Positions 4,430-50,851 of a stretch of DNA of 64,000 nt are shown here, in pieces. This DNA comes from Pneumocystis sp. 'macacae' (taxonomy: Eukaryota; Ascomycota; Pneumocystomycetes; Pneumocystales; Pneumocystaceae). The notes beneath the pieces were generated by a model that was not told the origin of the DNA, did no database searches, and was given only the letters and a program-made list of their open reading frames with translations. The stretch's first letter is position 1; every line of letters starts with the position of its first letter. The translations under genes were made by a program, and so were the position numbers. The DNA lies in the NCBI GenBank assembly GCA_018127085.1, contig CM030733.1:558001-622000 (forward strand). The letters are read 5' to 3'.

Positions 4430-6110
4430 TTACATATTTTGGAGTACTCTGTGGTGTATCGGATAAAGCATCAATAACGGTATTAGTTTCAGTATTTTTT
4501 TCTGATAGTTGTCTGTTTTAGGAAGGTACTGAATCTTTTGGCTTGCCAAATCAAACAGTTCGTGCATGTTAGATGCTACAGAATCTGTGCATACTTGTTT
4601 AGTTGAATGGTTTACATATTTATCTACAAAAGACAAATTTATTGTATTTGTTAAAGACATAGGATTTTTATCTAACGTTGTTAATACATTTAGTTGTGGG
4701 AGCTGTCCCGAATACTTTAACTTATTTTGAGGATTATAGACGATTAATGAAGAGCATGTCTCTAATGATTGTGATTGCTTTAAAGACACTTTTTTCTTTC
4801 TATAACTTTTAATACCTTTGTCAGTACAACGCTAAAGAGTGGAAAAATAATTAAGTTGCATATTTTCTGCATCTGTCAATTGAATACTTTAAATTGATGA
4901 AAGTTTTGCATTTAATTGAAAAATAAATTCATTGTGAAATTTGTTTTGGTGTGCCTAAAAATAATCAGTTTTGTATGCAAAAAGATAAAAAAACATACTT
5001 TCAAGTTCTCCGATTGTGTAAATGTTTTTTACAACCATCCAATAGGCAAAAATATGGTTGTATGTCTTCATGAATTAGTTTATCCACTCACAAATTTCCT
5101 TTTTCTGTGAAGCGCCTATTACATCCAGGATAAACATGGACAAATGGTCATTCTCCTATGTCGTCGTTCATGTGTCTGTTTAAAGTTAATTTTTGACCTT
5201 ATATTGTAATTAATTAGCAAAACTGAGAAATTGCAGAGGATCAATGAAAGTGTTGTTCATGCAAATAATATATAGTTTCATATACTCAACATATAAAAAG
5301 TATATATTATGTATATATTCAGTTATATTCACATGTATATTTTTATTGCTTTTTCTCTTCAATTATTTCATTGCTCTAAACAATATTGACTTTTTTGTAT
5401 ATATCTGCAAAAAAAGATTACATATCTCTTTTTGCTCTCATATTCCATTGCTGAATTCCTCATAGTTCTGACCTTTAAATTTTCAAATTGCGCAAATGTT
5501 TTACTACAATGCTGACAAACAAACGGTTTTTCCCCAGACTGGCATCACAAATGAATCCGTAAATGCGTTTATTATTGGAACATTTTTTCATATCCATGGA
5601 ATAAGCATTGGTATTTTCGCTTTTTTTGTTTTTTCTTTTATAATTACATTTTCTGTTTTTTTGTTGTCTACATTATCTTTTGACCCTGTTTCTCCATTTA
5701 ATTCCATTTTTATATCTGTATTTAAATTTATATTTAATTTTGTATTTATGTATTCATCTGTATTCTTATTTATCTTTTCATTGACTTCTTTTTTATTATT
5801 ATCTCTGTTTATATTTATTTTTTTCTATATTTGTTTCTGTAAATCTTTCTTTCATCTTTTCCTCCGTCTATTCTATACAATTTTGTCTTGATCAAATAGC
5901 CACCATGAGATCGTCGATATAAGACAATCTTTGTTTTAATTCGCCTGATATTATTGTGTATTTGCTCGGTTTATTTTCTACATTGAATGTACACTGGATT
6001 TGCAGTGGTTCAGCGTTATCAACATTATACTGAGTATTATGCATAATTCTATATTTAATATCTTGTTTTACCTCAGAATAAGAGCAACAAAAAGGTGATA
6101 CAGGTGTTGT
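4430..6110 (-). pseudogene. Decayed C2H2 zinc-finger transcription factor
   Basis: Reading the minus strand gives fragments of tandem Kruppel-type fingers with damaged ligands. Finger A (about 5610-5545) reads YQCLFHGYEKMFQ, then TAA TAA at 5569-5574, then THLRIH, so its second Cys is Tyr. Finger B (about 5535-5455) keeps GEKPFVCQHCSKTFAQFENLK but loses its histidines. The remnant LNRHMNDDIGE, followed by a stop, precedes finger C (about 5135-5075), where Cys is His and His is Asp and another stop interrupts. Finger D is intact across an intron (CLLDGCKKTFTQSENLKAHQNKFH in outline). Its tail stays in frame to 4430 but has stops at 4889-4891 and 4832-4834. The tail NKGIK motif is familiar from fungal C2H2 factors. 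An N-terminal open stretch lies at about 5895-6110. Confidence 0.72.
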
Positions 6111-19255: not shown

Positions 19256-21257
19256 TTAATCGGTAGATACCACAGAGGCATGCTTAAATAGATCTAAAAT
19301 GCGTTCCTTATGTTTTAAATTCAATTCCGACTGTTTTTCAGCCCTTATTTTCCTGTTTTTTTTCCTCATTAGTTCTGAATCATTTAGCTTACAGTATCAT
19401 GAATATCAGTATAAACCTTCTAATAGCCTTCCACTCATAAATGCCCAGAGATCGTTCCCGCCATTCCTAGAAAGCAGATATGCAGATATAAGCATTTTTT
19501 CCGCTTGCTCGCTTTCAGAATGAATAGTAAAATAGGAGCACAAAACGATTGAAGCGATGGCTCGTAGCTGGTTGTTAGCGTGTTTGTCGAATGCAGAGAT
19601 AACGGACAGCAAACTGTTTCTGCAGAATCAGCCCCCTGCTTATCTAGGAACCAGGCAATACTTTGAATGGACATCCCTTCTTACGGAGCCGCTAACTAAA
19701 TCCCATGCAAACCGCAGCTGAGCAAAACTCGATGACCGACATAAGGGCCCTATATCATCGAGAATCTCGTGTGCCCGTCTCTCATCGTGCAGCCTGCTCC
19801 CCTGGAAAATAAGAACAGAATTAAGGCTCCCCAGCAAACTGATCGCCTCGATACTCGTGGGTATCGAATCGTACGCCCTCAATGCTGCCTCCAGCCGGCC
19901 AGTAGACTGTGCGTACACCCCCTTCAAAAGCACATACAATGCCCTCGTGCTGCTGCCAAAAGACGACGACTGTCTGTCCAGATCCCGGATATGCTGACCA
20001 ATCAGCCTCGCCCACAACCAAAACACCACCAACCCCTTCCGCTTTGTCAAAATCCGACCTCAACACCAATGCAAAACAATAGTAAATCAAACATACTTCC
20101 CACGCTACCCTAGCCCACCCCCCGTTCCTGGCCGTCCGCATGCTCTCCCCCTGCAACGCCCCGCTTGCAACCATGCTCCCCAGCATCTCCAGCCCCTCCC
20201 CCAGAAAAACCCCTGCCCTCAATGAGCTCTGGTCTGGCAGATAACAGACCCCCGCCAAAAGATGTCCATAGACAAAAAGCTGCTCCCGGCTAAACCACTG
20301 CACTCCCAGCCTCAACCCCCCCTCTCTCCCCACCGGCACCTCCATCACCTCCTCCCACCCCCCGTCCTCTGCAAGCCCATCAAGCATCCTGTGCAGATCC
20401 CTCACCCCTGCCTCCCCTCCCCTCCCCTCCACCACATCCAGCAGCACCCCCAGCACCCTCCAAACCACCCTCAGCCCCCCAACCGCCTCAAACACCCCCG
20501 CCATCCCCGACACCTCCTCCAGCCGCTCCCTTGCCACCCCATACTCTCCCCCCTCCGCCCTCACACAGACCTCCAGCAGAGACGCCACCACATACACTGC
20601 CTCGTCTCCCCGCTCCCCAGACACCCTCTGGATCCCCGACAGAGCCGACAGCCGCTCCCCTCCCCCCCCTCCCGTCCCCGACACAGCCTCGAACTCCTGG
20701 AACCGGAAGACATACTCCCACCCTGCCGCCCCATGCCTGTCTGCCTCAGAAACACCCCAAAACCCCTGCCCTACTCCTCTGCCGCTGCCACACACGCCCT
20801 CACCCGAATCCTCGCGGTCCTCGGCGACGTCTCCATAAGAATACGCACCAGCTGTGCCTCCATCCCAAACACCGTCTCCCAGTCGCCCTCCTGCTGCCTC
20901 GTATCCTGCCTCAACTCCCACTCACCCACTTACTCTCTGTGCCACAAGAACCTGCGTCCTAAGCACTCACACACACTCCTCCCGCTTACCCCCTTGCTCA
21001 GAACCGCCTCTGCCTCCCCTGCTTCCTCCGTCTCCTCAAAAATAACCTGTGCCAGCCGCTGCCTCGTCCGCATCTCGACCCCCACCGCAACCTGCTTCTT
21101 CCAGATAAGCCCTCCGCCCTCTCCCCACCTGCAGCACCGCCTCTAGACACCCAATCCCCGTCGCCACATGTCTCCTGTGCTCCCTGCCCGCCCTGCGCAG
21201 CCGCTGCGCCTCCGCAAACAGCTCCTCTGCCACCGCCCACAGCACACTGTGCTCCAT
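19256..21257 (-). CDS. MAU2: Cohesin loader TPR subunit Mau2/Scc4
   Basis: Mau2 (Ssl3 in fission yeast) pairs with Scc2/Mis4 to load cohesin. The N-terminal exon gives LWAVAEELFAEAQRLRR and HVATGIGCLEAVLQ, a typical cohesin-loader start. The next exons give RQRLAQVIFEETEEAGEAE followed by AVLSKG, then LVRILMETSPRTARIRVRAC and GWEYVFRFQEFEAV, all TPR-like helices. The C-terminal exons give LLGSLNSVLIFQG, LRFAWDLVSG, ANNQLRAIASIVLCSYF and LLSRNGGNDLWAFMSGRLLEG. Introns are short. Base use shifts inside the gene: the 3' third is AT-rich like its surroundings, and the 5' two-thirds is strongly GC-rich with G-rich sense strand. The start ATG is at 21255-21257, only 62 bases beyond the CENP-A stop. 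Confidence 0.85.
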
Positions 21258-21319
21258 CCGCGGGCTGCCTGTGCACGCCCCGCCGTCCCTGCGCTGCCAC
21301 GGCAACCGTTGCCCAGCAA

Positions 21320-21875
<556 letters not shown>

Positions 21876-21912
21876 GCTGTCTCCCCCCGCCCCCGCGCCT
21901 ATCTGCCGCTGC
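21876..21912. promoter_or_regulatory. 37-bp gap between divergent CENP-A and GPHR-like starts
   Basis: Only 37 C-rich bases separate the CENP-A ATG (minus) from the first GPHR-like ATG (plus). Both promoters must overlap this gap or the opposite gene's coding sequence. No TATA-like or AACCCT histone box is seen. Confidence 0.55.
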
Positions 21913-22959
21913 CATGGCAACTCCCTCCATGGGTCTCTGGCTTGCTGCACTCCATGCTGCGGCCTTTGCCGCTGCTGCTGCTGCACATGCTGCTGCGCGC
22001 CCTGCGCGCCTCGGCGCTGCCGCCCGCGCGGTGCTCAGCGCCACTGCGGGGCTGTGCACCGTGCTCCTTGCACTGTGCATCGCCGAAACAAGTCCTGCGG
22101 CAAGGCATGTCTCCCCCAACCCCGTCCATGCTGAGTGTCCAGGGCTCGCTCGACACGCAGACTCGAGTGGGCTGCAACCGTCCCTGTCCTCCTTGTCCTG
22201 ACTGTTGCGGTCCTCCCATACCTCCTTATCTACCGCGCACTTGCCGTCCACTGTCTCCGCCGCCGCGCTGCTGCTGCTGCCGGCCTCTCTGCCCTCTACA
22301 TCTATGTCCTCTGGACCCTCGACCGCTATCTGCCTGTCTCCCGCCACACACTGCCTCACCCCCCATACACTGCATGCGTTGGCCGCTGGCTGCTGCGCGT
22401 CGGATCCCTGGGCGTCGGGCTTATGGGGCTTGTGTCGGGCGCCGGTGCTGCGCGTGCTGTGCTCCTCCACTGTCCTGCGCCCTGCCGCTGCATGCACGCT
22501 GCATGGAGGCGCGGCGGGCGCTATGTCTTTGGCGCATACAGCGCATACCGCATTGCTGCACATGCTGGCGCGCTCTGGGGGCGCTGTGCACCACGCACTG
22601 CGCCCGGAGTGCTGGGCGCCGGCCTGGCAGCAGCAGCAGCATGGGTGCAGGGCGCAGCAGATGTCTGCCACAGGGCTGTGCAGCATGCACCGGCGGGGCA
22701 GCGAGTGCTGCTGCTTGCATCGGCCGGCGGGGTGTATGGGCTGGCAGCAGCAGTGGGGGTTGCAGGAGACGGGTGTGTGCTGGAGCAGTGGTTTTCAGGG
22801 GCATTTGTGGCAGGCGCAGTGGGAACAGGCGCAGGACGGGCAGTGTGGGTGCTGCTCGGGGGACAGCGCGGGAGAGAGGGGTTGGGCAGGGAGAGGGTGT
22901 CCGGCAGGGTCTGTGATGGGGAAGCGTGGGCTTTGCGAGGAGCGCGTCGACGGCCATGA
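21913..22959 (+). CDS. GPHR/GPR89-like multispanning membrane protein, compact
   Basis: GPHR proteins are Golgi/ER anion channels or receptor-like proteins with N- and C-terminal membrane bundles. Exon 1 (to 22104) is extremely Ala-rich: MGLWLAALHAAAFAAAAAAH, then LCTVLLALCIAE. A GC-AG intron (22105-22142) restores AAR/ARSTRRLEWAATVPVLL. Then follow VLPYLLIYRALA, LYIYVLWTLDRYLP and VGSLGVGLMGLVSGAGA, matching the family's VIGVTLMALLSGFGA block. After a short link come RYVFGAYSAYRI and a C-terminal LEQWFSGAFVAGAVGTGAG, which match the GLxFSxYCVYRI and DRWFDxxFLxxA blocks. Total is about 335 residues against the usual 450-550, mainly because the cytosolic loop is cut to about 25 residues. The call rests on pattern order, not identity. 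Confidence 0.55.
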
Positions 22960-25900
22960 AAAAGGCCGTGCTTGCGCACTCGGGACCGCTCAACTATGCT
23001 AGAGCAGTCGCGCATGCAGAGGGACATGCGGGGGTGCGGGCAGTGGGGGTTGAGCGGGGGACGGGGGAGAGAGGGGAGGGAGAGGCGGTGAGGGGCCGGC
23101 GGGCACAGCGGTCGTCGAGCAGCCCAAGCAGGGCATACAAGGGGGGGTCGCGGCAGTCTGTGCAGCGCACAGGGGAGGAGGGCGAGCAGGGCGCGGGGGC
23201 GGGGGGGGAGCAGGGGGGGCACCAGCGGCGGAACTCGTCGATGCACTCGAACCGGTCGTCGCTGTCGCCGTGCCAGGGACAGACGGTCTATCCGTATGCA
23301 TACCATGCATCGCCGTATTTCTTTGGTAACTACAGTGGAGCAGGCGCAGCAGGGTGTTGGGTGCTGGTGGTTGGGCGGCAGGTGGGCGGGCGGTGGCAGG
23401 GCAGGGCGTGTTGGGGCAGGGTAGGGTTTTCTGTACAGGGCAGGGTTAGGGTCGGGAGTGTGTAGGGTTAGGGTTGTGTATGGCTAGGGCTGGGTTAGGG
23501 TTAGGGTTAGGTTGGGCGGGTTGGGGCTGCTGCGCCTGTGCAACTGGTGGTGCGTGCTGACAGAAGCAGTGCCTCCAAACTATGCGGGAGTGGGGGCGTA
23601 TGCGTCGCACGGGGGACACTCGGGATACACACAGCGGGGCCTTGGAGGGCTGCCGAGTGCGGGGGGACATGCGTTCAATGGGGTGTCGTCGCCACCGGTG
23701 GTGGCGACACAGGCGTGGCAGTCGATGAACCAGCACTATGTATGGGTGTTTGGGGGGGATAGGGGAGAGCGGGGGCTAACGGAAGCCAGTTTTACCAGAG
23801 TGGATATGAGCAGGGGGGGTTTTACCAGCCTCTGTACGGGATTTCGTCGCACTCGTTTGTGATGCCGATGGGGTCGTATGGGGGGATGCTGTATCCGTAT
23901 GGGGGACAGGGGTTTCAGCAGACGGGGGGGTTTTCGGGGCAGACGGGGCAGATGGGGAAGAGTGTTTCCTCGGGAACGGAGTATGCAGCAGGGTCGACAC
24001 TGGGGGCGTCGATACATGGAGAGACGGGGGGATGGACGTCGCAGGTGCCGGGAGAGGAGACGCCGGGGCCGGGTATTGTGCGGCCGCAAAAACGGGTTAA
24101 TGCGGCGGTTAAGATAGTGAATCCGAAGACGAATATGGAGATTCTGATTTCGCCGACACAGTCGGCGCAGGATGCGAGGGACGGGGTGGCGTCGTTGGCC
24201 CTGGATGAGGCATGCAAGGATATAGATGTTTTGTCGGGGACAGGGGAGGAGAAGCGGGACTCGGTGGTTGTGCCTGAGAAACAGGCAGGAGATGACGGGC
24301 CGTCAGGGAACAGGGAGGAGCAGGGGGCAGATGATGCGGTTGGTGCAGGGGAAAAGAGTCTGTCTGCTCGAGAGACGGAGGTGCTGCAGACGGCACAGCC
24401 TGGTGTGGGGTGTGAATCGAGCGTTGCAGTCGGGGAGGGGGGTGGGTTTGAAGAGGAAGCGGCAGAGGCAGAGGCAGAGGGCCAGGGAAGCGGCAGCATG
24501 TCTGGGGGAGTCGAGAAAGATGGTCTGGTCGGGCCTGACCAGGAAAAAAATGTAGCTGAGCCGAATGAAAAGGAAGATGAGTTTGTTGAGGCATTGGACA
24601 AGAATGGCGATAGCGCTGTAGCGGCGGAGGGGAAGGAGGAGAGTGTATCAGAGTACTGCTCTGTATATGAAGAAGCACAGCTGACTGAAGAAAATAATGT
24701 TGTAGAGAAAGATACAGTAGAAAAGGATGGATCTCAAAAAGATATTTTAGAAGAAAACGAGGCTGCGGATGGTATTATAGAAAATAGTGATATGAAAGAT
24801 ACTTTGGAGAAAAGTACTACGAACGATATTTTAGAAGAAAACGCGATACAGGATGGTGTAGAAAAAAATACAGTGGAAGATGCTACAGGAGAATCTGCTT
24901 TTTGTGATTCTAAGTTGAATTTTATGAAAGATGAAGACCTGAAACCCGTGCATGACAATGTAGATAGTACTCTAAATACTCAGGGTGTTGACCAATCTCA
25001 TGACTATAATGTGACTGAACTTCAAGACAAGTCGTCTCAGGACCAAAGCTGTACGACGAAACAATCATCATTGCCTAGTGAAAAAACGAAACAAAAAACA
25101 CTGCCTGCGCCTCTTGATCTTTCCAAGACATCTAGAAATGATGCACGTGCAGTTTCCGTTTCTATTAATTCTCTTAAAAATGCCGAGTTTATTACAGATC
25201 TCACGACTATTGTATATCCAGAAAAATTTAAGCCTCCGGATAAGTCTTTAAATGTAAATTCACTGCCTGGGAAATTTAGATATAATGAGGATTTTTTACT
25301 ACAGTTTCAAAAAGTTTTTAAAGATAAGCCAGATCATAATTGGGATGAACGTATAAGGGATACTATCGGTGATGGTACAGATGACAAAAAGGCTTCCAAA
25401 AATAGCCTTGGTGGGTTGAGTTCGAGATCTATATCACGAAGCATTGGTGTTTCAATGACATCTATCCCTATAGGTACTTTTGGCTTAAGTAAAGCATCTT
25501 TAAGCAAATCTTCATCAAATCAGCATTGTCAGTATGCTAGTGCTCAAGTGCAACAAGGCCTGGATGCTTTATCATCAAATATGGATGAATTAGCGGGGTC
25601 TGGTGCAAAATCCACGTCCAATAACAAGTCCATGTCGTCATCTGGTGTTGCTTTAAGTGATTCCGGGAGTCCTGTTGTTTCTAGATTTTCTTTCACTGGA
25701 TCTAATAATTCAGCTTCGTCTTCATTCCCTATGAGTGGGTCGGGCAGTCCTGTTACACCTAAAATGTCATCTAGGAAAGGAAGTCGTCGTGGAACAGGAC
25801 TTTCGCAATCTGAATTTAAGGGTGACAAACACGACCAGAAGACCGGGGCGAATGCATTTGCGGATCATGTGGTTCCTCTGACAGTATCGGCGAATAGATG

Positions 25901-27583
25901 GCAGCCGAAATTAAAATCTCAAACGATTCAACCAGGTGAGCATATGGATCCTGAAACGGTTCAACGGAAAGTTAAAGCCGCTCTTAATAAGCTTACGCTT
26001 GATAATTTTGATCGGATTACAGACCAGATTTTAGAAATTGCCTCTCAATCGAAAAATGAAACAGACGGACGGACATTGCGGCAAATTATTCAACTTACTT
26101 TTGAAAAGGCTACAGATGAAGCAAATTTTTCAAGTATGTATGCCAGATTTTGTAGAAAAATGATGGAAACAACGAGTCCCGAAATTCGTGATGAGAAACT
26201 ACAATTGGATAAGAATGGCAGACCAATCACTGGAGGCATTCTTTTTAGAAAATATCTTCTTAATAGATGTCAAGAGAATTTTGAACGTGGATGGAAGGCT
26301 AATCTTCCTTCTAAGCCAAATAGCGATCCTAGTAGCTCCCAAGAAGCTGAAATGCTTTCTGATGAGTATTATGTTCTTGTTGCTGCAAAACGTAGAGGGC
26401 TAGGTCTTATTAAATTCATTGGCGAACTTTTTAAATTGAATATGTTAACGGAAAGAATTATGCATGAATGTATAAAAAAGCTTCTTGCCAATGTTGTTGA
26501 TCCTGATGAAGAAGAAATTGAGAGTTTATGTAAACTTTTGACTACTATTGGTAAGGATTTAGAAAGCACTGAAAAAGGGCATTTACATATGAATGTATAT
26601 ATTGAACGCATGGATAAGATTGTTAAAACATCGAATCTTTCTAATCGAATTAAATTTATGGTTATGGTAGGTCTTATGAGATTTTAAGTTTTTTTAACAT
26701 AATTAGGATATTTTGGACCTAAGAAAAACAGGATGGAAATCTAAAAATGCTGATAAAGGGCCTAAGACAATTGCAGAAATTCACGAAGATGTAAAACATA
26801 ATTTTTTGTATTTATAATATTATTAATTTAGATCAGATAGCTAAAGAGAAAGCCGAAGCCGAAGCCACGCGACTTATAAATCAAAATCGTGGATCAAGAT
26901 TAGATTTTGGACGAATGGATAAAAGTGGTCGTTCTAATATATCCTTATTTGGGGTTCCCGATTGGCAGAATTCAAAAAATTTTAATTCTACTGACAGCAA
27001 GGCAGGCGATTTATCACGATTGGGACAGATCAGATCATCTAACCAAAAACCATATGGACCAGGTGGTCAACTTTCATCTTTAAGAAGTTTAAGTGAGAGT
27101 AAGAAATTTGCATTTGAGCCGCATGAACTTCAAAAAGAATTAAGCCATTCATCACAAACATCTGCAACTTCTAATGCAATAACATTAGAACAAAAATCTC
27201 ATCAAAATATGTATAAATTCATTTTGAAACTTCATAATTTAATTATTTGATTTAGTGTACTTTTACCGAAAACCGAATATGTTCTCCAAAATAATCAACA
27301 TACCAGCTCTCAAGAAGCTGATGTTAATCTAAAAAACTCTACGCACAGCATGTCATTGTCAGATTTATCAAAACATAATCTTGTCAACTCTAAAGATATC
27401 TTAGAATTGGTTGATTTAAAAGAAAACGTAGCGATGCAGACTACGCTTACTAGAGACTCAAAAATAGTTCAAAACATCGATTCGGATGATGAAACAACCT
27501 CTAAAGAGCATTTTGCTGATTCCGAAAAATATGAAACTGCACTAGAGAAATTTGCTGATTCTGAAGAATCACCCGTTGCATGA
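22956..27583 (+). CDS. Translation initiation factor eIF4G
   Basis: eIF4G bridges eIF4E, eIF4A and PABP. The start ATG at 22956 leads to HSGPLNYARAVAHAEGH, resembling the YARA motif at the fission yeast eIF4G N-terminus. GC-rich exons encode Gly/Tyr/Gln-rich sequence (QGQTVYPYAYHASPYFFGNY; MPMGSYGGMLYPYGGQGFQ). KRVNAAVKIVNPKTNMEI matches the conserved KIVNP patch. An acidic repeat-like region follows. The eIF4E-binding motif is RYNEDFLLQFQ (YxxxxLL). The MIF4G domain runs from MDPETVQRKVKAALNKLTLD through NFSSMYARFCRKM to RIKFMVMDILDLRKTGWK. The C-terminal exons are Ser/Glu-rich and end SEESPVA. The long intron around 23325-23571 holds TTAGGG repeats. Confidence 0.9.
23405..23515 (+). repeat. 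Interstitial telomere-like TTAGGG repeats
   Basis: Within an eIF4G intron the plus strand carries clustered TTAGGG-type units: AGGGTTAGGGT near 23443, TAGGGTTAGGGTTG near 23463, and GGGTTAGGGTTAGGGTTAGG at 23492-23511. Degenerate GGGTAGGG and GGCTAGGGC units lie between them. Perfect runs are short (about three units), but clustering and shared orientation set them apart from general G-richness. Confidence 0.82.
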
Positions 27584-34757: not shown

Positions 34758-35152
34758 ATACAGAAATACAAACCCATATATTGTGTATACATTGTTTTAA
34801 CGTCGATATTAACATTCTATGTTATTTGAATACTCTATGTATAAACTGGCTATTTTATACAATAAAAACTTAAATTTAGCTTTTTTTCCATATTGTCAAT
34901 TGGGCATCAATAGATATATCAATAAATAAAAATAGTCTATTATTTTTGTTTTGAATTCAATACCCATTAGTGATAAATATGCTTCTGAAAAACCATATAA
35001 AACTATACAAAGATGTTTTAATCTTTGGATCGACTATTTATGGGCTTATAAAACTGTTTAATGGTATCTCTGAATTCGTTAAATATCGATATTGAAAAAA
35101 TCAAATACACCCATGTAATAATCATGCCATCTCGAAATAATAAAATAATACA
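34758..35152. other. Convergent spacer
   Basis: About 395 A/T-rich bases between the convergent holocytochrome synthase and ARL1 3' ends. No gene or RNA is seen. Confidence 0.45.
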
Positions 35153-36163
35153 CTACGATGCATTGGTTTTGCTTTTAATCGCATTAACGAGCCAATCTAG
35201 ACCCTCTGCCAGCCCCTACCATGCTTAGCTTTATTCTTGATTTTCCTTTATATCCACTTCTCCCGTAATTGCACTTGTCGATATAACTGTCCAGTTCTTG
35301 TGGCACATTTCTGTAAGCCCAAGTCTTTCCGATATTTCTGCAGTATTCAATGCATTTGGTACGTCTTGTTTGTTTGCAAAAACTAACAAATCTGTATCTA
35401 AAAGTTCTTTTTCCTGCATAATTGCCTGGAGCTCCTTCGCCGTTGCCGACAAGCGCTGTACGTCCGTCGAATCGATCACATAGATGATTGCTTGTGTTCC
35501 TGTATAATAGCAGCGCCAATAACTGTATGCATAAGCTGTGGTATGTTCACAGAGGTGCTTACGGTCGAATTGATGTTTGTCCCCCAAGATCCTGTCTTTA
35601 TTAATGTATATACAACGCATATTCTATGCATATGCACTGCATATTTGTATATTCTACGTATATAACCTGTATACATTATACATATAATGCTTAGAACTCC
35701 CACACTGTGCATACACTATATATATAGTGTGTATATATAACGTATAGATAACGCATAGTCTTTGCATACAGTGCATCTTCATTGTTTTTTCATACCCAAA
35801 CATTAAACTTAATATTTTTGTACAACACCGTCTCCATATTAAATCCGATTGCTGTCTGGTTAGAACTGTCTCAATCTTCCTACTGCTTACTTGGAACTGT
35901 CGTAACCACTTCTCCCACCTGTTCTTCAGTACATATACTATGTATATATCTATTCCTTACCTGCATTTTGTATAGAATCGTTGTTTTTCCTGCTACACGC
36001 AATGTTATTCCTTTATTTTTTCTTTAAACACAACACGCCTCCATCCAGTCCAAGAATAAGTACTCTGATTTCTTTTTGTCCCCACAAATGCGACAGAAGC
36101 TTTCCAAAGACTCCGCCTAAGTCTTATCAGGGCAGCTGGTGTATTTTTTTCTCTCAAACCCAT
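35153..36163 (-). CDS. ARL1: ARF-like small GTPase Arl1
   Basis: Arl1 recruits golgin tethers to the trans-Golgi. Eight small exons are implied. Exon 1 holds only ATGG (36160-36163), joined to GCGGAGTC to give MGGVFGKLLSHLWGQKEIRV. The P-loop GLDGAGKTT crosses an intron whose donor reads GCGTGT. Then come LYKMQ, VGEVVTTVPTIGFNMETVLY, KNIKFNVW, DLGGQTSIRP, YWRCYYTGTQAIIYVIDS, FANKQD and TSAITGE. The end is GLAEGLDWLVNAIKSKTNAS, with TAG at 35153-35155. The switch II sequence DLGGQTSIRPYWRCYY favours Arl1 over Arf1. Gly2 is present for myristoylation. One intron (about 35597-35800) is unusually long and AT-palindromic. Confidence 0.9.
35610..35790. repeat. ATATAC/GTATAT palindromic tract in an ARL1 intron
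   Basis: Alternating purine-pyrimidine runs such as ACTATATATATAGTG and GTATATATAAC with many small inverted repeats. They fill the long ARL1 intron. The style matches the larger tract at 41.5-42.3 kb. Confidence 0.6.
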
Positions 36164-37019
36164 TTCACAACTGTTGTTTATGGTTTAATCAGTGCCTAAG
36201 TATTCTTAGACCTGTTGGTACCAGTATTTTCTGTATACTTCTCTATACACAGCGTATATACGTGTATACGCTGTGTTAACGCAGTAGCAGCGGGTTCGAT
36301 CAGCGTTGCATTTTCTATGCGCCGCAAGAAACAAAATCTGTATGGATAAAAGGATTAATAGGATTAATGTGTTTAAGGATAAAGAGACATATAAGGATTT
36401 AGAAGATAGAATAGAGTGGATAGGCATTTTTGGGCATTTTTGGGTGTTTTGTAAGCTTTTCTAAATCCAAATTTAAGGGTACTTAAAATTGCTTTATATT
36501 TGGTTAGTTACATTGAATATAAGTTACATTTGTCTTGAATTTACCTGACTACTTAGTGCTTGACCTGTATTTGGCGGGTGTTTGTCTATTTGCTCAGTGT
36601 TTGTTCTGAACTTGTTTATTTAGTCTTTACATATTTTTCCTGGATTCACTCTATATTTGATCTGAATTTACTTTTCTGTCTAAGTTTTTATTGTCTCTAC
36701 ATTTTATTTCCTCTGGATTTATTTGTTTGCTTTTGATTTATTTAATTGCTTTGTTTTTTTAGAGTTTGTCTATCTTACCTAGATTTACTCTGGTTTTATT
36801 CTGACTTTGCATATTTATTCTGTTTTTCCTGAATCTGTTTATTTACTTTACTTTTTTTTGGATTTCTGCTGTATATATTTCCTTTGGATTTATTCTGAAT
36901 TTACATATTTCTACGGTTTTTGCTTTGGTTTTATTGTAGTTTTGCGCTATACTTGCAGTCTCCTCTGAATTTTTTTCTTAATTTGTTTTTAAACATTAGT
37001 TAGGTTATATAGAATTAAG
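36164..37019. promoter_or_regulatory. Divergent spacer with degenerate T-rich repeats
   Basis: About 850 bases between the divergent ARL1 and ATS1 genes. From about 36530 to 36980 units such as TGGATTTATTCTGAATTTAC and CTGAATTTAC recur imperfectly in a T-rich strand. Near 36420-36450 GCATTTTTGG is repeated. No frame is supported. Confidence 0.5.
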
Positions 37020-38054
37020 ATGTATAACAATATGCTTTTTGCGTTGGGTGCAAATGGACAGGGTCAGTTAGGTCTGCCAAGAGGTGCAGATGTTAACCGA
37101 CTTACACAGGTGATGCTAGATGGAGTACAGCCGATGGTCCTTTCTGCAGGAGGCAATCATACATTAATGCTTGATTCTTCTGGTTGTTTGTTGGCAGCAG
37201 GCGATAACGCATTGGGACAGTGTGGATGCGATGTAAAACAATGGGAAGGTTTTTCGCAAATAGCACAAGAACAGTGCTGGACAGCAATTGCTGCTGGGTG
37301 GAAGTTTTCGGTATTTGCAAGAGAAAATGCTGTATGGACAAGTGGATACGGCAAATATGGTGAGCTTGGTTTGGGAAAAGATAATTACCAGGTAATATTG
37401 CACAAGATTCCTGGATTTCCTCCGAAGAATAAGAAAATCGTTCAATTACGTGCAGGTGTGTATCATGTTGTCTGCTTATTAGATAATGGTGAATGCTGGG
37501 GATGGGGTGACGCACGGCACGGTGAATTAGGACCTGGTTTGGTTGATTGTGTATATAGACCGACGAGGATGTCTGTACCAAGTAATGTGTGCGCTGTAGC
37601 CTGTGGACGTGGGTTTTCTGTAACATTATCAATGACTTTGAATATATGGGGACGTTTGCGTGGTGTAACACATGATTCAGGGTTCTCGGAAATGATGATT
37701 GAATTGAACGATATTTTGTCATTAGATGCATCATGGTCAGCTGTTTTTCTTCTGATGAAGAAAGGCAATGTGGTTATGTTGGGATGTAATGATCTTGCTC
37801 AACGTTGTCCAAGTACAATGCCCCCACTGAAGATGCTTGCTGTAGGTAGTGAGCATTGTTTAGGTGTTGGAGTGGATGGAAAGGTTTATGGCTGGGGATG
37901 GAATGAGCATGGTAATTTGTGTGAAGATAAAAAGGATGTGCGAGAAGTGTATCGGTTAAAAGTACCTAAAGGAAATGTTAAATTTGTTGCAGCTGGCTGT
38001 GGGACCAGTTGGATTTATATTGAAACTTTAAATAAAACTGCTAATGAAATTTAA
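37020..38054 (+). CDS. ATS1: RCC1-repeat protein, Ats1-like
   Basis: A single-exon gene of 344 residues, unusual in this intron-dense window. It has seven RCC1-like blades: LFALGANGQGQLGLPRG, LLAAGDNALGQCG, VWTSGYGKYGELGLGK, GECWGWGDARHGELGPG, LNIWGRLRG, VVMLGCNDLAQRCPS and VYGWGWNEHGNLCED. The GGNHTLMLDSSG and GVYHVVCLLDNG turns are typical. Length and early blade order match budding yeast Ats1 and its relatives, linked to tubulin and to wobble-uridine tRNA modification. A second, longer RCC1 gene lies at 47652-49255, which is the Ran exchange factor; this one is the paralogous small type. Confidence 0.82.
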   Translation: MYNNMLFALGANGQGQLGLPRGADVNRLTQVMLDGVQPMVLSAGGNHTLMLDSSGCLLAAGDNALGQCGCDVKQWEGFSQIAQEQCWTAIAAGWKFSVFARENAVWTSGYGKYGELGLGKDNYQVILHKIPGFPPKNKKIVQLRAGVYHVVCLLDNGECWGWGDARHGELGPGLVDCVYRPTRMSVPSNVCAVACGRGFSVTLSMTLNIWGRLRGVTHDSGFSEMMIELNDILSLDASWSAVFLLMKKGNVVMLGCNDLAQRCPSTMPPLKMLAVGSEHCLGVGVDGKVYGWGWNEHGNLCEDKKDVREVYRLKVPKGNVKFVAAGCGTSWIYIETLNKTANEI

Positions 38055-46962: not shown

Positions 46963-47043
46963 GGGAGGGTAGCAAAGTGGTTACTGCGTTGGTTTTAGGC
47001 GCCAATGTCTTCGGACGCGCGGGTTCGAATCCCGTCTCTCTCA
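46963..47043 (+). tRNA. tRNA-Leu(TAG), intronless
   Basis: An 81-base class II tRNA. The acceptor GGGAGGG pairs with CTCTCTC (two G-U pairs) before discriminator A. The D-arm has GTGGTTA. The anticodon stem TTGGT/GCCAA holds loop TTTAGGC with anticodon TAG, reading CUN leucine codons. A variable arm follows (TGTCTTCGGACG). The T-arm is CGGGTTCGAATCCCG. Internal A and B boxes are intact and a T-run for Pol III termination follows at once. No CCA is encoded, as expected for a nuclear gene. Confidence 0.95.
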
Positions 47044-47651: not shown

Positions 47652-49255
47652 TTATGATTCAACTGGAGGTATACCCAAAAGAACGCTATAAAAATAAATA
47701 TAATATATATATACACATAAAATACCTAAATTGACCACCGGCACCACCAGCAACTATTACCTTACCATGTATAGCTGTATTATCGATTTTTGTAGGAACT
47801 TCAATATCATTACCTGATGGACCTTGTCCAACTTGATAGCTTTCTCCAAAACCCCAACTCCATACACTTCCATCATCTTTAATGATAGCAAGATTATGAT
47901 GTGTGCCGCAGTATATTTGACTAACGCTTGGAATCCCTGGCACTTTTGTTGGGATAGGCACGAATCTTGGCCTATTAGATGCATCGTAGACAGTGTATTG
48001 AGGTAAGTATGTACGCGGAATTCCAAGTTGATTTGCATCAAGCCTTCCCCATACGAGTAGTTCTCCCTCCTGCGTTAGTGCTGCAGAATGATGTTCACCT
48101 CCTGTGATATATACAATGTTATAGCGATCAAGGCTTTGGACATGTGTTGGACTGGATATGACTGCACCGTCTTCACCACCAGAACTCTCAATACCACATT
48201 GTCCAAATTGATTCAAACCCCATGAAAAAACCCTACCGTCATGACTAATTGCGAAAGAGTGATAAGATCCTGCTCCTATGGCTTTTATTTTCTTAAGTCC
48301 AAACTCTCGGGGAACGAGTGCATTAAGACGAGTACGCTCTACAACACGATGACCCAATTGAAATTGCTGACCATTTCCCCATGAAAATACTGACCCATAT
48401 GCTGTAAGGGCAAGTACATGATCTGTACCACATACAACAGAAACTATATTACTAAGTTCTTTCAAATGAACTGGGTGACGAGCAATTCTAATCTGAGGAG
48501 AAAATCCAAGAATCCCATCTGAGCACTACAAACGTTATTTTTTATTATTTATACAGTTTTACTCATACCCTGAATGACCCCCATGCGTATACTTGGCCTT
48601 TATCTGTGATTGCTACACTGATACTATCTCCACATGCCATTCTTACTATCTTAACACCATCAGGCATGCCCTCTACTTTACCTGGTACGCTATCTTTTGG
48701 GTTTAACATCTGTTCATCGTCACTATCCGGATCTGTTCTATTGATGTTCCATGTTGTGTCTCTCCCAAGAGCACCTTGATCATTTACTCCCCAAGTATAT
48801 ACATTTCCCTCATAGTCAATGACTGCTGTATGCATACCGCCTACTGCTACATCTACAATTCCTACTGTATCATATGGCAAAAGTGGATTGAGTCGTGGAC
48901 GTTTAACAATTCTTCCAGTAGGTTCTGGTCCTAACCCCAGTTCACTCATAGAGCCTGTTCCAAATACATAAACATTGAGTTTCTGTTGTTTTAATACGGG
49001 TATCTCATTTATAAATGGTACTGATGATCGGCGATTTCCTGTTCCTTTTAACGTGTATGATCGTGTAGATATAATTGATCTTTTTTCCCTCAATTTCCCT
49101 ATATCGTTTATTTTTTTGACTGAATTTAAAGTCCCCGCCTGCATCTGAGACTGCTTTTTCAGATCTCCATATGATTTCATAGTTTTTTTTAAGACTTGGT
49201 TAACTTTAGATGTTCCTTGTTTTGTTTCACGATGATGTATCACAGGTGGACCCAT
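47652..49255 (-). CDS. RCC1: Ran guanine-nucleotide exchange factor RCC1/Pim1
   Basis: RCC1 charges Ran with GTP on chromatin. The start ATG at 49253-49255 gives a basic Ser/Thr/Lys-rich N-terminal tail (about 85 residues) suited to nuclear import and chromatin contact. The propeller begins VYVFGTGSMSELGLGPEPTG and KRPRLNPLL, with VAVGGMHTAVIDYEGNVYTW, GVNDQGALGRDTTW and VAITDKGQVYAWGSFR. A 50-nt intron leads to VSVVCGTDHVLALTAYGSVF, GAGSYHSFAISHDGRVFSWG, TGGEHHSAALTQEGELLVWG and CGTHHNLAIIKDDGSVWSWG. A last exon adds SVLLGIPPVES and TAA. The order, including the DPDSDDEQ-like acidic insert, fits fungal Pim1/Srm1. Confidence 0.92.
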
Positions 49256-49686
49256 TTTCTTCCAAAAAAAGTCAACTCAGAAATTCCAGTTCTTATATTT
49301 TTTCCCCTTTATAAATACTCCGTAAATTTCTCTTTAAATCCTGCTCTTTAACTTAATTCTTACTGTTATATTATTTCCCGTGTGGCTGGCCGAAATGTTG
49401 GTAAAAAAGGTCTAACTACGAAATTATGAAACCTTTAAAAATTATTAAAAAGTTATTAAAAATCATTATTTTAATTTAAGAATAAATTAAGAATACATTA
49501 GTAAATAAGCTGATAAGCAACTTAAAAGTTTAAAAAAGTTAACTAAAAAAAGTTAAATTTAAAAAAGTTTTAAGGAATTTAAACAGGTAAATACCATTTC
49601 TCAAGATTGTTATTAATTTGAATTAAAAGTTCTGGTTAACTAGAAACCAATTTATTTTAAAAACAGTGTCAATTAAGTGACAAACT
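49256..49686. promoter_or_regulatory. Divergent spacer between RCC1 and YIP1
   Basis: About 430 bases between divergent starts. Short direct repeats of AAAAAGTTA type occur near 49450-49570. No frame is seen. Confidence 0.45.
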
Positions 49687-50851
49687 ATGTCAAAAGGGTA
49701 TTTTGGTGGACGGCGGTCAGCAGATGATATGAAGGTACATAGTAGATTAATTAAATTATGAAGTTAAAACTATTATTAATGCTTTATCAGTTTTATCCTT
49801 CGAATTATCATGGAACATCAGCTAAGGATATATTTTTAACAGATAAACGTGAAATAAATATGCAGCTTCATGGTCAAGAAACCTCTTTTGGTACCTGGGA
49901 TAATAAGATGGGATGGATTGCAGCGTTTGGAACAGGGGGCTATATAAATGAACAACCTTTACTTGAAGGTGAGACAGTGAGTAATTTTAGAATTTAGAAT
50001 AATGGTTTTTTGGAAAATCACTAAGATCAAAGTTTTGTTAAGATAATTTTTTTATGAATATGATTTTGTTTATTTTTCTAATTTGAATTTTACTTATTAT
50101 CATTGACTACTAGCATTTCTTTTCCTATATTCTTATTTTTATAACTAACTAGTTTACAGAATTAGGTGTTAATTTTATGCATATTAAGGGGAAGGTAAAT
50201 TTAGAGGTGTTTTGTATTTTTTTAACTGTAATAGACATTAGCGGTGTTAAATCCTTTAGCAAATGTTGACGATCATATAATGGATGACAGTGATTTAGCA
50301 GGACCGATTCTTTTTTGTCTTCTTTTTGCTACTTTTCTTTTATTGGTAAAATATCTGATAAACTGTTGTTTTCTTATATATATTTGATAGAGTGGGAAAA
50401 GACACTTTGGTTACATATATGGTGTTGCGCTTCTTGGTTGCATTTCTCTTCATACGATTTTCTCTTTGATGTCTTTGCGCGGCTTACATTTTTCACGTAC
50501 TGCGTCAATTCTTGGTTATTGTCTTTTACCTTTAGTTCTTACATCTGCCTGTGGTATTCTTATATCCATGGAGTACTTGTCTTTTTTCTACTAATGACAG
50601 TGTTAACTTATTTATAGTGGACTTGTTGGATACATTGTCTCATCTATTGCTATTGCCTGGTGTACTTATAGTGCTAGTGCTATGTTTGTAGCAGTAAGTT
50701 ATATTACATAGAGTTTTGTTATTAAATTTTTAAACAGGCTTTTCAACTCAATGAAATGAGATTTTTAGTTGCTTATCCTTTAGCATTGTTTTACTCTGTT
50801 TTTGCTGTCATGACTGTCTTTGCAGAGAAAAATGTCTCTCTAAAATCTTAA
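49687..50851 (+). CDS. YIP1: Golgi/ER membrane protein Yip1
   Basis: Yip1/YIPF5 binds Ypt1 and Ypt31 GTPases and supports ER-to-Golgi vesicle formation. Exon 1 gives [16 protein letters not shown]. Exon 2 gives [16 protein letters not shown] and [15 protein letters not shown] sequence. A later small exon gives [12 protein letters not shown]. The core is [20 protein letters not shown], then [40 protein letters not shown] and the final hydrophobic helices with [20 protein letters not shown]. It ends EKNVSLKS at 50849-50851. The ELGVNF and DLAGPIxFCLLFG blocks define the family. About six introns. It is acidic at the N-terminus with four or five membrane segments at the C-terminus, as expected. 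Confidence 0.9.

Follow-up and report, generated by a model that had tools for sequence, protein, structure and literature searches.

Fixed break sites become rich in guanine and cytosine (GC) at the stable recombination hotspots of dogs, birds and yeast. A much larger GC contrast is found in the stretch of DNA described here, 64,000 nucleotides from the macaque lung fungus Pneumocystis sp. 'macacae' (P. macacae; assembly GCA_018127085.1, contig CM030733.1, designated C14, positions 558001–622000; hereafter the window), in which a GC-rich island with a mirror-image strand pattern interrupts AT-rich sequence and belongs to a class of such islands distributed over the genome. The runaway GC of the fat sand rat and of gerbils, for which the authors invoke biased gene conversion, is similar in that native genes of one lineage have been pushed to high GC with amino acid changes, and canids are also mentioned there in connection with stable GC-peak hotspots (PMC7403616). 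P. macacae, a fungus of 29% GC, differs from these rodents in having compact islands of 3–6 kb in at least 30 copies with a mirror strand pattern, a pattern that does not appear in the accessible part of the rodent account (PMC7403616). Human hotspots resemble the islands in that their two flanks, each of ∼2 kb, have opposite strand preferences, which are attributed to resected single strands; but the human signal is one of mutation among rare variants, in which the forward strand loses C and A (PMC7615360), whereas here it is the fixed composition that has changed and C is gained. In single-strand annealing, studied with a reporter in mouse cells, strand-biased resolution of mismatches is set by break processing, which similarly determines the winning strand; in contrast to the islands, the type of mismatch had little influence, and no preference for C or GC is given in the accessible text (PMC9001825). 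The mapped centromeres of Pneumocystis are genic and kilobase-sized like the islands, but they number one per chromosome and have lower GC, whereas the islands occur one to several times per contig and have far higher GC (PMC10327204). The terms "GC-rich" and "GC content" occur zero times in the main text of the P. macacae genome paper (PMC7940399). No description of the islands was found in the open-access literature, subscription papers and supplements aside; the nearest, in the accessible part of a preprint, is the remark that Mis12 peaks of P. macacae lie in GC-rich regions (PMC10327204).

The window is part of an assembly of 8.27 Mb in 19 contigs. The island, delimited by the maximal-scoring segment and the GC profile, occupies window positions 19684–24645 (4962 bp) and has a GC content of 64.1% as compared with 28.7% for the rest of the window (outside 19.5–25.0 kb), in which stretches of 4.9 kb range from 23% to 33%. 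The excess is present in every class of site, including codons, introns (59–75% GC in the five measured) and short gaps between genes (75–77% in the two measured). The original prediction, made from the letters of the window, had described a GC-rich island crossing four native and continuous genes, those for MAU2, CENP-A, a GPHR-like protein and eIF4G. The island and the continuity of the genes are confirmed, as the open frame of eIF4G and the exons of MAU2 pass from GC-rich into AT-rich sequence and the genes run without interruption across both edges; of the four names, MAU2, CENP-A and eIF4G are supported by Pfam matches, but the GPHR-like name is weak (GPHR_N, E-value 0.14, below the cut-off). 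The skew profile divides the island into a left half (19684–22363), with a C-rich top strand and a GC skew of −0.2 to −0.6, and a right half (22364–24645), with a G-rich top strand and a skew of +0.3 to +0.46. The sign changes near 22.4 kb, or at 22.4–22.5 kb in a separate scan of the window for skew flips. This change of sign, the telomere-type repeats in an eIF4G intron and the existence of sister islands were no part of the original prediction.

Candidates for similar islands elsewhere in the genome were taken from clusters of runs of at least 16 G or C, of (TTAGGG)2 and of an 11-bp minisatellite word, and were chosen regardless of skew. There are 52 such internal places in all, eight places with contig-end repeats having been excluded, and 36 of them, including the window, were examined. 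Thirty of the 36 are strong islands with 58–66% GC. Each of contigs C1–C16, which hold ∼99% of the genome, carries at least one verified island, and several carry two or three. The first 19 islands have lengths of 2.8–6.2 kb (mean, 4.2 kb) and flanks of 32% GC; several lengths among the later 11 are lower bounds, being cut by the fetched stretch. The remaining six places comprise two groups: (i) L028, L029, L031 and L034, where the rise in GC is weak or absent, and (ii) L016 and L020, which are plain poly-G. If the 16 unexamined places behave like those examined, the genome has about 40–45 islands. BLAST comparison between islands gave 41 short matches, of which the 15 longest, up to 169 bp, were viewed; several fall on minisatellites, and no common seeding element was seen among these 15.

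The skew of the left geometric half is negative and that of the right half positive in every one of the 30 strong islands (two-sided binomial probability, 2e-9); 24 control stretches taken from the window gave a left value below the right in 11 cases. The test includes islands truncated by the fetched stretch, and for 11 of the 30 the sequence was fetched only once the first 19 had shown the pattern. The smallest half-island skews are −0.01 (L017) and +0.04 (L022 and L033). When the first 19 islands are averaged around the flip, a centering that sharpens the profile and that does not enter the half-by-half test, GC rises from 31% to 65% within ∼2.5 kb, with half-height ∼2.1 kb from the center, and the skew fades together with GC and is near zero beyond ∼3 kb. 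On the left of this average, C increases from 0.16 to 0.42 and G remains at 0.15–0.20 until ∼1 kb from the center; the right is the mirror image. The four loci whose GC rise is weak or absent also run from minus to plus, in steps of 500 bp, and each is centered on a TTAGGG tract; their course lends the pattern support that is suggestive only.

Between 0.5 and 1.8 kb from the flip, the log-weights of the bases on the outward strand relative to the flanks are 0.00 for A, 0.00 for T, 0.83 for C and 1.51 for G, with bootstrap limits of ∼0.07 for C and G and 0.02 for A and T. The balance between A and T is as expected of a force that favors G:C and is blind to A versus T, like conversion at equilibrium.

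As the original prediction had proposed, the genes were compared with those of related species, whose orthologues have an ordinary AT-type protein composition. The best relatives of eIF4G and MAU2 are proteins of other Pneumocystis species, and in P. canis the two genes (PCANB_000773 and PCANB_000776, respectively) are each on a contig of 297,114 bp, and two intervening numbers separate their locus tags. Horizontal transfer was rejected on these relationships and on the continuity of the genes through the edges, and the genes are native as predicted. Residues of eIF4G encoded in the island are 30–53% Gly, Ala, Arg or Pro in P. macacae as compared with 5–32% in the same alignment blocks of P. 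canis, P. murina, P. carinii and P. wakefieldiae; outside the island the proportions are similar. With P. murina as the third sequence, the island part of eIF4G has 66 residues changed in P. macacae alone, 29 of them to Gly, Ala, Arg or Pro, versus 33 changed in P. canis alone, whereas the conserved C-terminal part has 40 (six of them to these four residues) and 37, respectively. Six exon pieces of MAU2 have 26–37% of the four residues versus 9–26% in P. oryctolagi, P. wakefieldiae and P. canis, the last piece, mostly outside the island, having 22% versus 14–15% in the relatives. An RNA methyltransferase encoded in another island has 42% versus 24–25% in relatives over its Pfam-matched region. 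Because the proteins of the relatives are ordinary over the same residues, the growth of the islands would fall wholly or mostly on the branch that leads to P. macacae, as judged from species that do not include P. jirovecii. The latter, the closest species, contributed no protein to the matches listed (in one case the best 120 of 575). Its split from P. macacae is dated to ∼62 million years ago (PMC7940399).

Telomere-type repeats in the islands are also oriented. In the 30 islands TTAGGG occurs 149 times outward, that is, on the outward G-rich strand, versus 11 times inward, and 22 of the 23 (TTAGGG)2 places are outward, at 0.1 to 2.8 kb from the flip. The genome has 25 internal (TTAGGG)2 places; 24 were examined, of which 20 are in strong islands and four in weak loci. 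The outward repeats could have been left by telomerase acting on a 3′ end extended past a break, or could merely have been carried along on the G-rich strand. Tandem repeats make up 6.2% of island bases versus 1.1% of the flanks. Several islands, among them L007, L009, L011, L015, L017, L019, L030 and L033, carry an 11-bp minisatellite of the GTGTATGCGCA type, which may mark breaks or result from them. The genome contains 20 occurrences of its word TGTATGCGCAG versus two of the reversed control; ten occurrences are in verified islands and ten in places outside the examined set, and one match was taken per neighborhood (14 of the 20).

The islands are probably long-lived hotspots of double-strand breaks at which resected ends undergo GC-biased, strand-asymmetric repair. 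From the observed geometry we infer breaks, resection, conversion and a contribution of telomerase, as follows. The window island would be one of roughly 40 recombination hotspots of P. macacae, with breaks arising around its center and resection of the 5′ ends extending outward for some 2 kb. Repair of the DNA so exposed would favor G:C over A:T, unequally between the strands, such that the gain of C on the surviving 3′ overhang (the top strand on the left and the bottom strand on the right) would be about twice the gain of G in log-odds. A correction on the overhang would be sealed when the partner strand is resynthesized, but a correction of the donor strand would create a second mismatch and half of such corrections would be lost; the observed ratio of the weights, ∼2:1, suits this scheme. 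Over the P. macacae lineage the process would have raised GC at the center from ∼30% to 65% and altered conserved proteins, and the outward orientation of the TTAGGG tracts would be in keeping with telomerase activity at the extended 3′ ends. The strength required is modest, and it is the persistence that is unusual. A Spo11-family domain (TP6A_N, E-value 4e-13) is present at 219.9 kb of contig C12, and in mouse cells break processing is described as setting a strand bias in the resolution of mismatches (PMC9001825). The original prediction of GC-biased gene conversion at a hotspot is the best fit to the 30 islands, their bell-shaped profile, the mirror skew and the balance of A and T, with a break-linked mutation bias as its surviving competitor. 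A more specific proposal is offered tentatively and may well be wrong: base composition would record the polarity of resection, bases opposite G being corrected to C on the overhang and their complement removed, with much recombination at ∼40 sites and an altered CENP-A.

Several observations weigh against repair of this kind. Pneumocystis is reported to self-fertilize, and isolates of P. macacae differ at ∼0.1% of sites (PMC7940399); both should weaken conversion. Matches to the UDG superfamily (three at two loci) and to HhH-GPD (four at three loci) may or may not include mismatch glycosylases of the kind that such a scheme calls for. L028 and L034 have a local flip but scarcely any increase in GC, which GC-favoring conversion alone does not explain.

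A mutation bias linked to breaks at the same hotspots, in which strand-specific errors are made in refilling resected DNA, needs no heterozygosity and fits the reported self-fertilization and low diversity. It predicts the same geometry, both for the mirror skew of the 30 islands and for the flip-centered profile, and mutagenic, strand-asymmetric repair has been described at human hotspots (PMC7615360). Nevertheless, A and T are reduced equally, which is unexpected if transitions lead, and the human hotspots, as we read the report, lose C and A from the forward strand (PMC7615360), whereas the corresponding strand of the islands gains C. Y-family polymerases are one source of break-linked mutation, but the genome yielded no candidate: a six-frame search for the IMS domain found none, although genes split by introns can escape such an exon-by-exon search. 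A true loss of this polymerase family would be notable. We regard mutation without conversion as unlikely, though it deserves to be taken seriously.

The skew of many replication origins runs from minus to plus, and fixed bidirectional origins would give the islands the correct sign through their leading and lagging strands. However, the skew declines together with GC and does not extend past ∼3 kb in either direction, whereas forks travel much further, and fork asymmetry alone does not raise GC twofold; origins are a very improbable cause. Equally improbable is that the islands are GC-rich elements under selection because they are bound by the kinetochore or by Mis12 or are otherwise functional. 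Chromatin immunoprecipitation (ChIP) of Mis12 is reported to give each P. macacae chromosome ∼4–6 peaks, with a tendency to fall in GC-rich regions, but the authors of the preprint leave open an artifact of ChIP, and the centromeres mapped in P. carinii and P. murina average 3.9% lower GC (PMC10327204). Selection on a bound element predicts neither protein change on a kilobase scale nor mirror skew. Identity of the islands with the Pneumocystis centromere itself, which in P. carinii and P. murina is present once per chromosome with GC below the genome average, does not fit the two or three islands of 58–66% GC on several contigs.

Strand bias linked to transcription, or codon choice, might be suspected since most genes of the window point outward, but it has scarcely any credibility left once the genes that point inward are considered. 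The comparison of third codon positions covered five pieces of the window genes together with 11 Pfam-matched frames of other islands. Inward parts, which are coded on the C-rich strand, have C 0.60 and G 0.15 at these positions, with negative skew in six of six; outward parts have G 0.53 and C 0.20, with positive skew in nine of ten, the single exception being 50 codons of an acyltransferase beside the flip. The direction of genes is therefore not the cause of the skew. Moreover, the third-position skew reverses within the GPHR-like frame, from −0.67 to +0.17, with the change at the center of the island. The frames came from 30 that were scanned individually, with a Pfam match in eight of the 20 picked inward and four of the 10 picked outward; a frame of L007 (SUZ12 zinc domain, below the cut-off) was excluded, TBP was taken through to the end of its open frame, and TTC4, the acyltransferase and RPL44, with matches at or just past the flip, were counted as outward. 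Outward genes seem to be commoner in the islands: open frames of the outward strand (150 scanned of 151, one having exceeded the size limit) match 68 Pfam families, a number inflated by overlapping WD40 models, and those of the inward strand (112 on the left and 106 on the right) match 15 and 15.

An ancient subtelomere, foreign DNA or an assembly chimera, suggested by the TTAGGG repeats inside many islands, can practically be dismissed, as the genes are native and run through the edges, one architecture is common to 30 internal islands and the assembly, made from Nanopore and Illumina reads, has according to its authors no misjoins at rearrangement breakpoints, a check that did not extend to the islands themselves (PMC7940399). 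The subtelomeric position in particular, which the original prediction had offered as its second explanation, is not supported: the window island occupies 578–583 kb on a contig of 663 kb, every one of C1–C16 has at least one verified island in its interior, and the GC run found at contig ends is not shared, its exact sequence being absent from the long GC runs of the internal islands. This conserved run has eight copies within ∼13 kb of contig ends (C3, position 306; C4, 553 kb; C8, 480 kb; C10, 472 kb; C13, 6.5 kb; C15, 374 kb; C16, 10.6 and 338.7 kb) and is probably a subtelomeric repeat.

The genes of the window island are arranged as follows. The gene for the cohesin loader MAU2 (PMAC_001317; minus strand, 19260–21257, ends approximate; Pfam Cohesin_load, 4.4e-16; exons checked against relatives) is mostly within the island, with its 3′ end outside, and its exons go from GC-rich to AT-rich on the left. 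It is followed by the gene for the CENP-A-type histone H3 (minus strand, 21322–21875, ends approximate; Pfam Histone, 3.7e-10), whose exons were read and which has two GC-rich introns. The GPHR-like gene (plus strand, 21915–22959), the main exon of which gave the GPHR_N match, spans the flip. The eIF4G gene (plus strand, 22956–27583, start and end approximate; Pfam eIF4G1 and MIF4G; 100% match to PMAC_001318) has its 5′ part inside the island and its 3′ part outside, and its frame at 23763–26684 is open from GC-rich into AT-rich sequence. Comparison of exon ends places an intron of ∼243 bp with 63% GC at 23326–23568 (plus strand), and within it lies a degenerate (TTAGGG)n tract on the outward strand (23442–23526, plus strand). 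The public model PMAC_001318 begins antisense to CENP-A and joins the GPHR-like frame to eIF4G (21559–23568), and PMAC_001317 has two stretches read in a frame differing from that of the relatives; both models look wrong here. The CENP-A coding sequence at 21351–21445 is 84% identical over 95 bp to positions ∼4478–4572 of island L005, a match taken for histone kinship, and on this sequence similarity L005 may hold a histone H3-type gene too.

Elsewhere in the window, weaker minus-to-plus flips near 36.3 and 49.4 kb are accompanied by mildly raised GC (35000–38000 and 48000–50500), and these regions are possibly weak or young islands. Reverse flips of comparable size are present at 12.3 and 34.8 kb. 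Outside the island, weak rises in GC correlate with skew flips at 0.12, 0.23 and 0.38 on three scales, and skew flips with local GC peaks at 0.07, 0.22 and 0.35, the smallest of which is not significant, so that a link between the two is suggestive only. A transfer RNA (tRNA) gene at 46963–47043 (plus strand) is the window's sole Rfam match above the gathering score.

In most cases GC-biased conversion shows itself as no more than a weak, statistical signal, but in P. macacae conversion or a close cousin of it appears in at least 30 copies with a twofold contrast in GC, and the strand signature points to the repair step responsible. If break hotspots with GC-biased, strand-asymmetric repair are the correct explanation, the islands would provide a recombination map, from sequence alone, for an unculturable fungus, a natural test of the choice of strand in heteroduplex correction, and a case of a process that visibly distorts essential proteins. 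If, in addition, base composition records the polarity of resection, the altered housekeeping proteins, CENP-A included, would be its cost.

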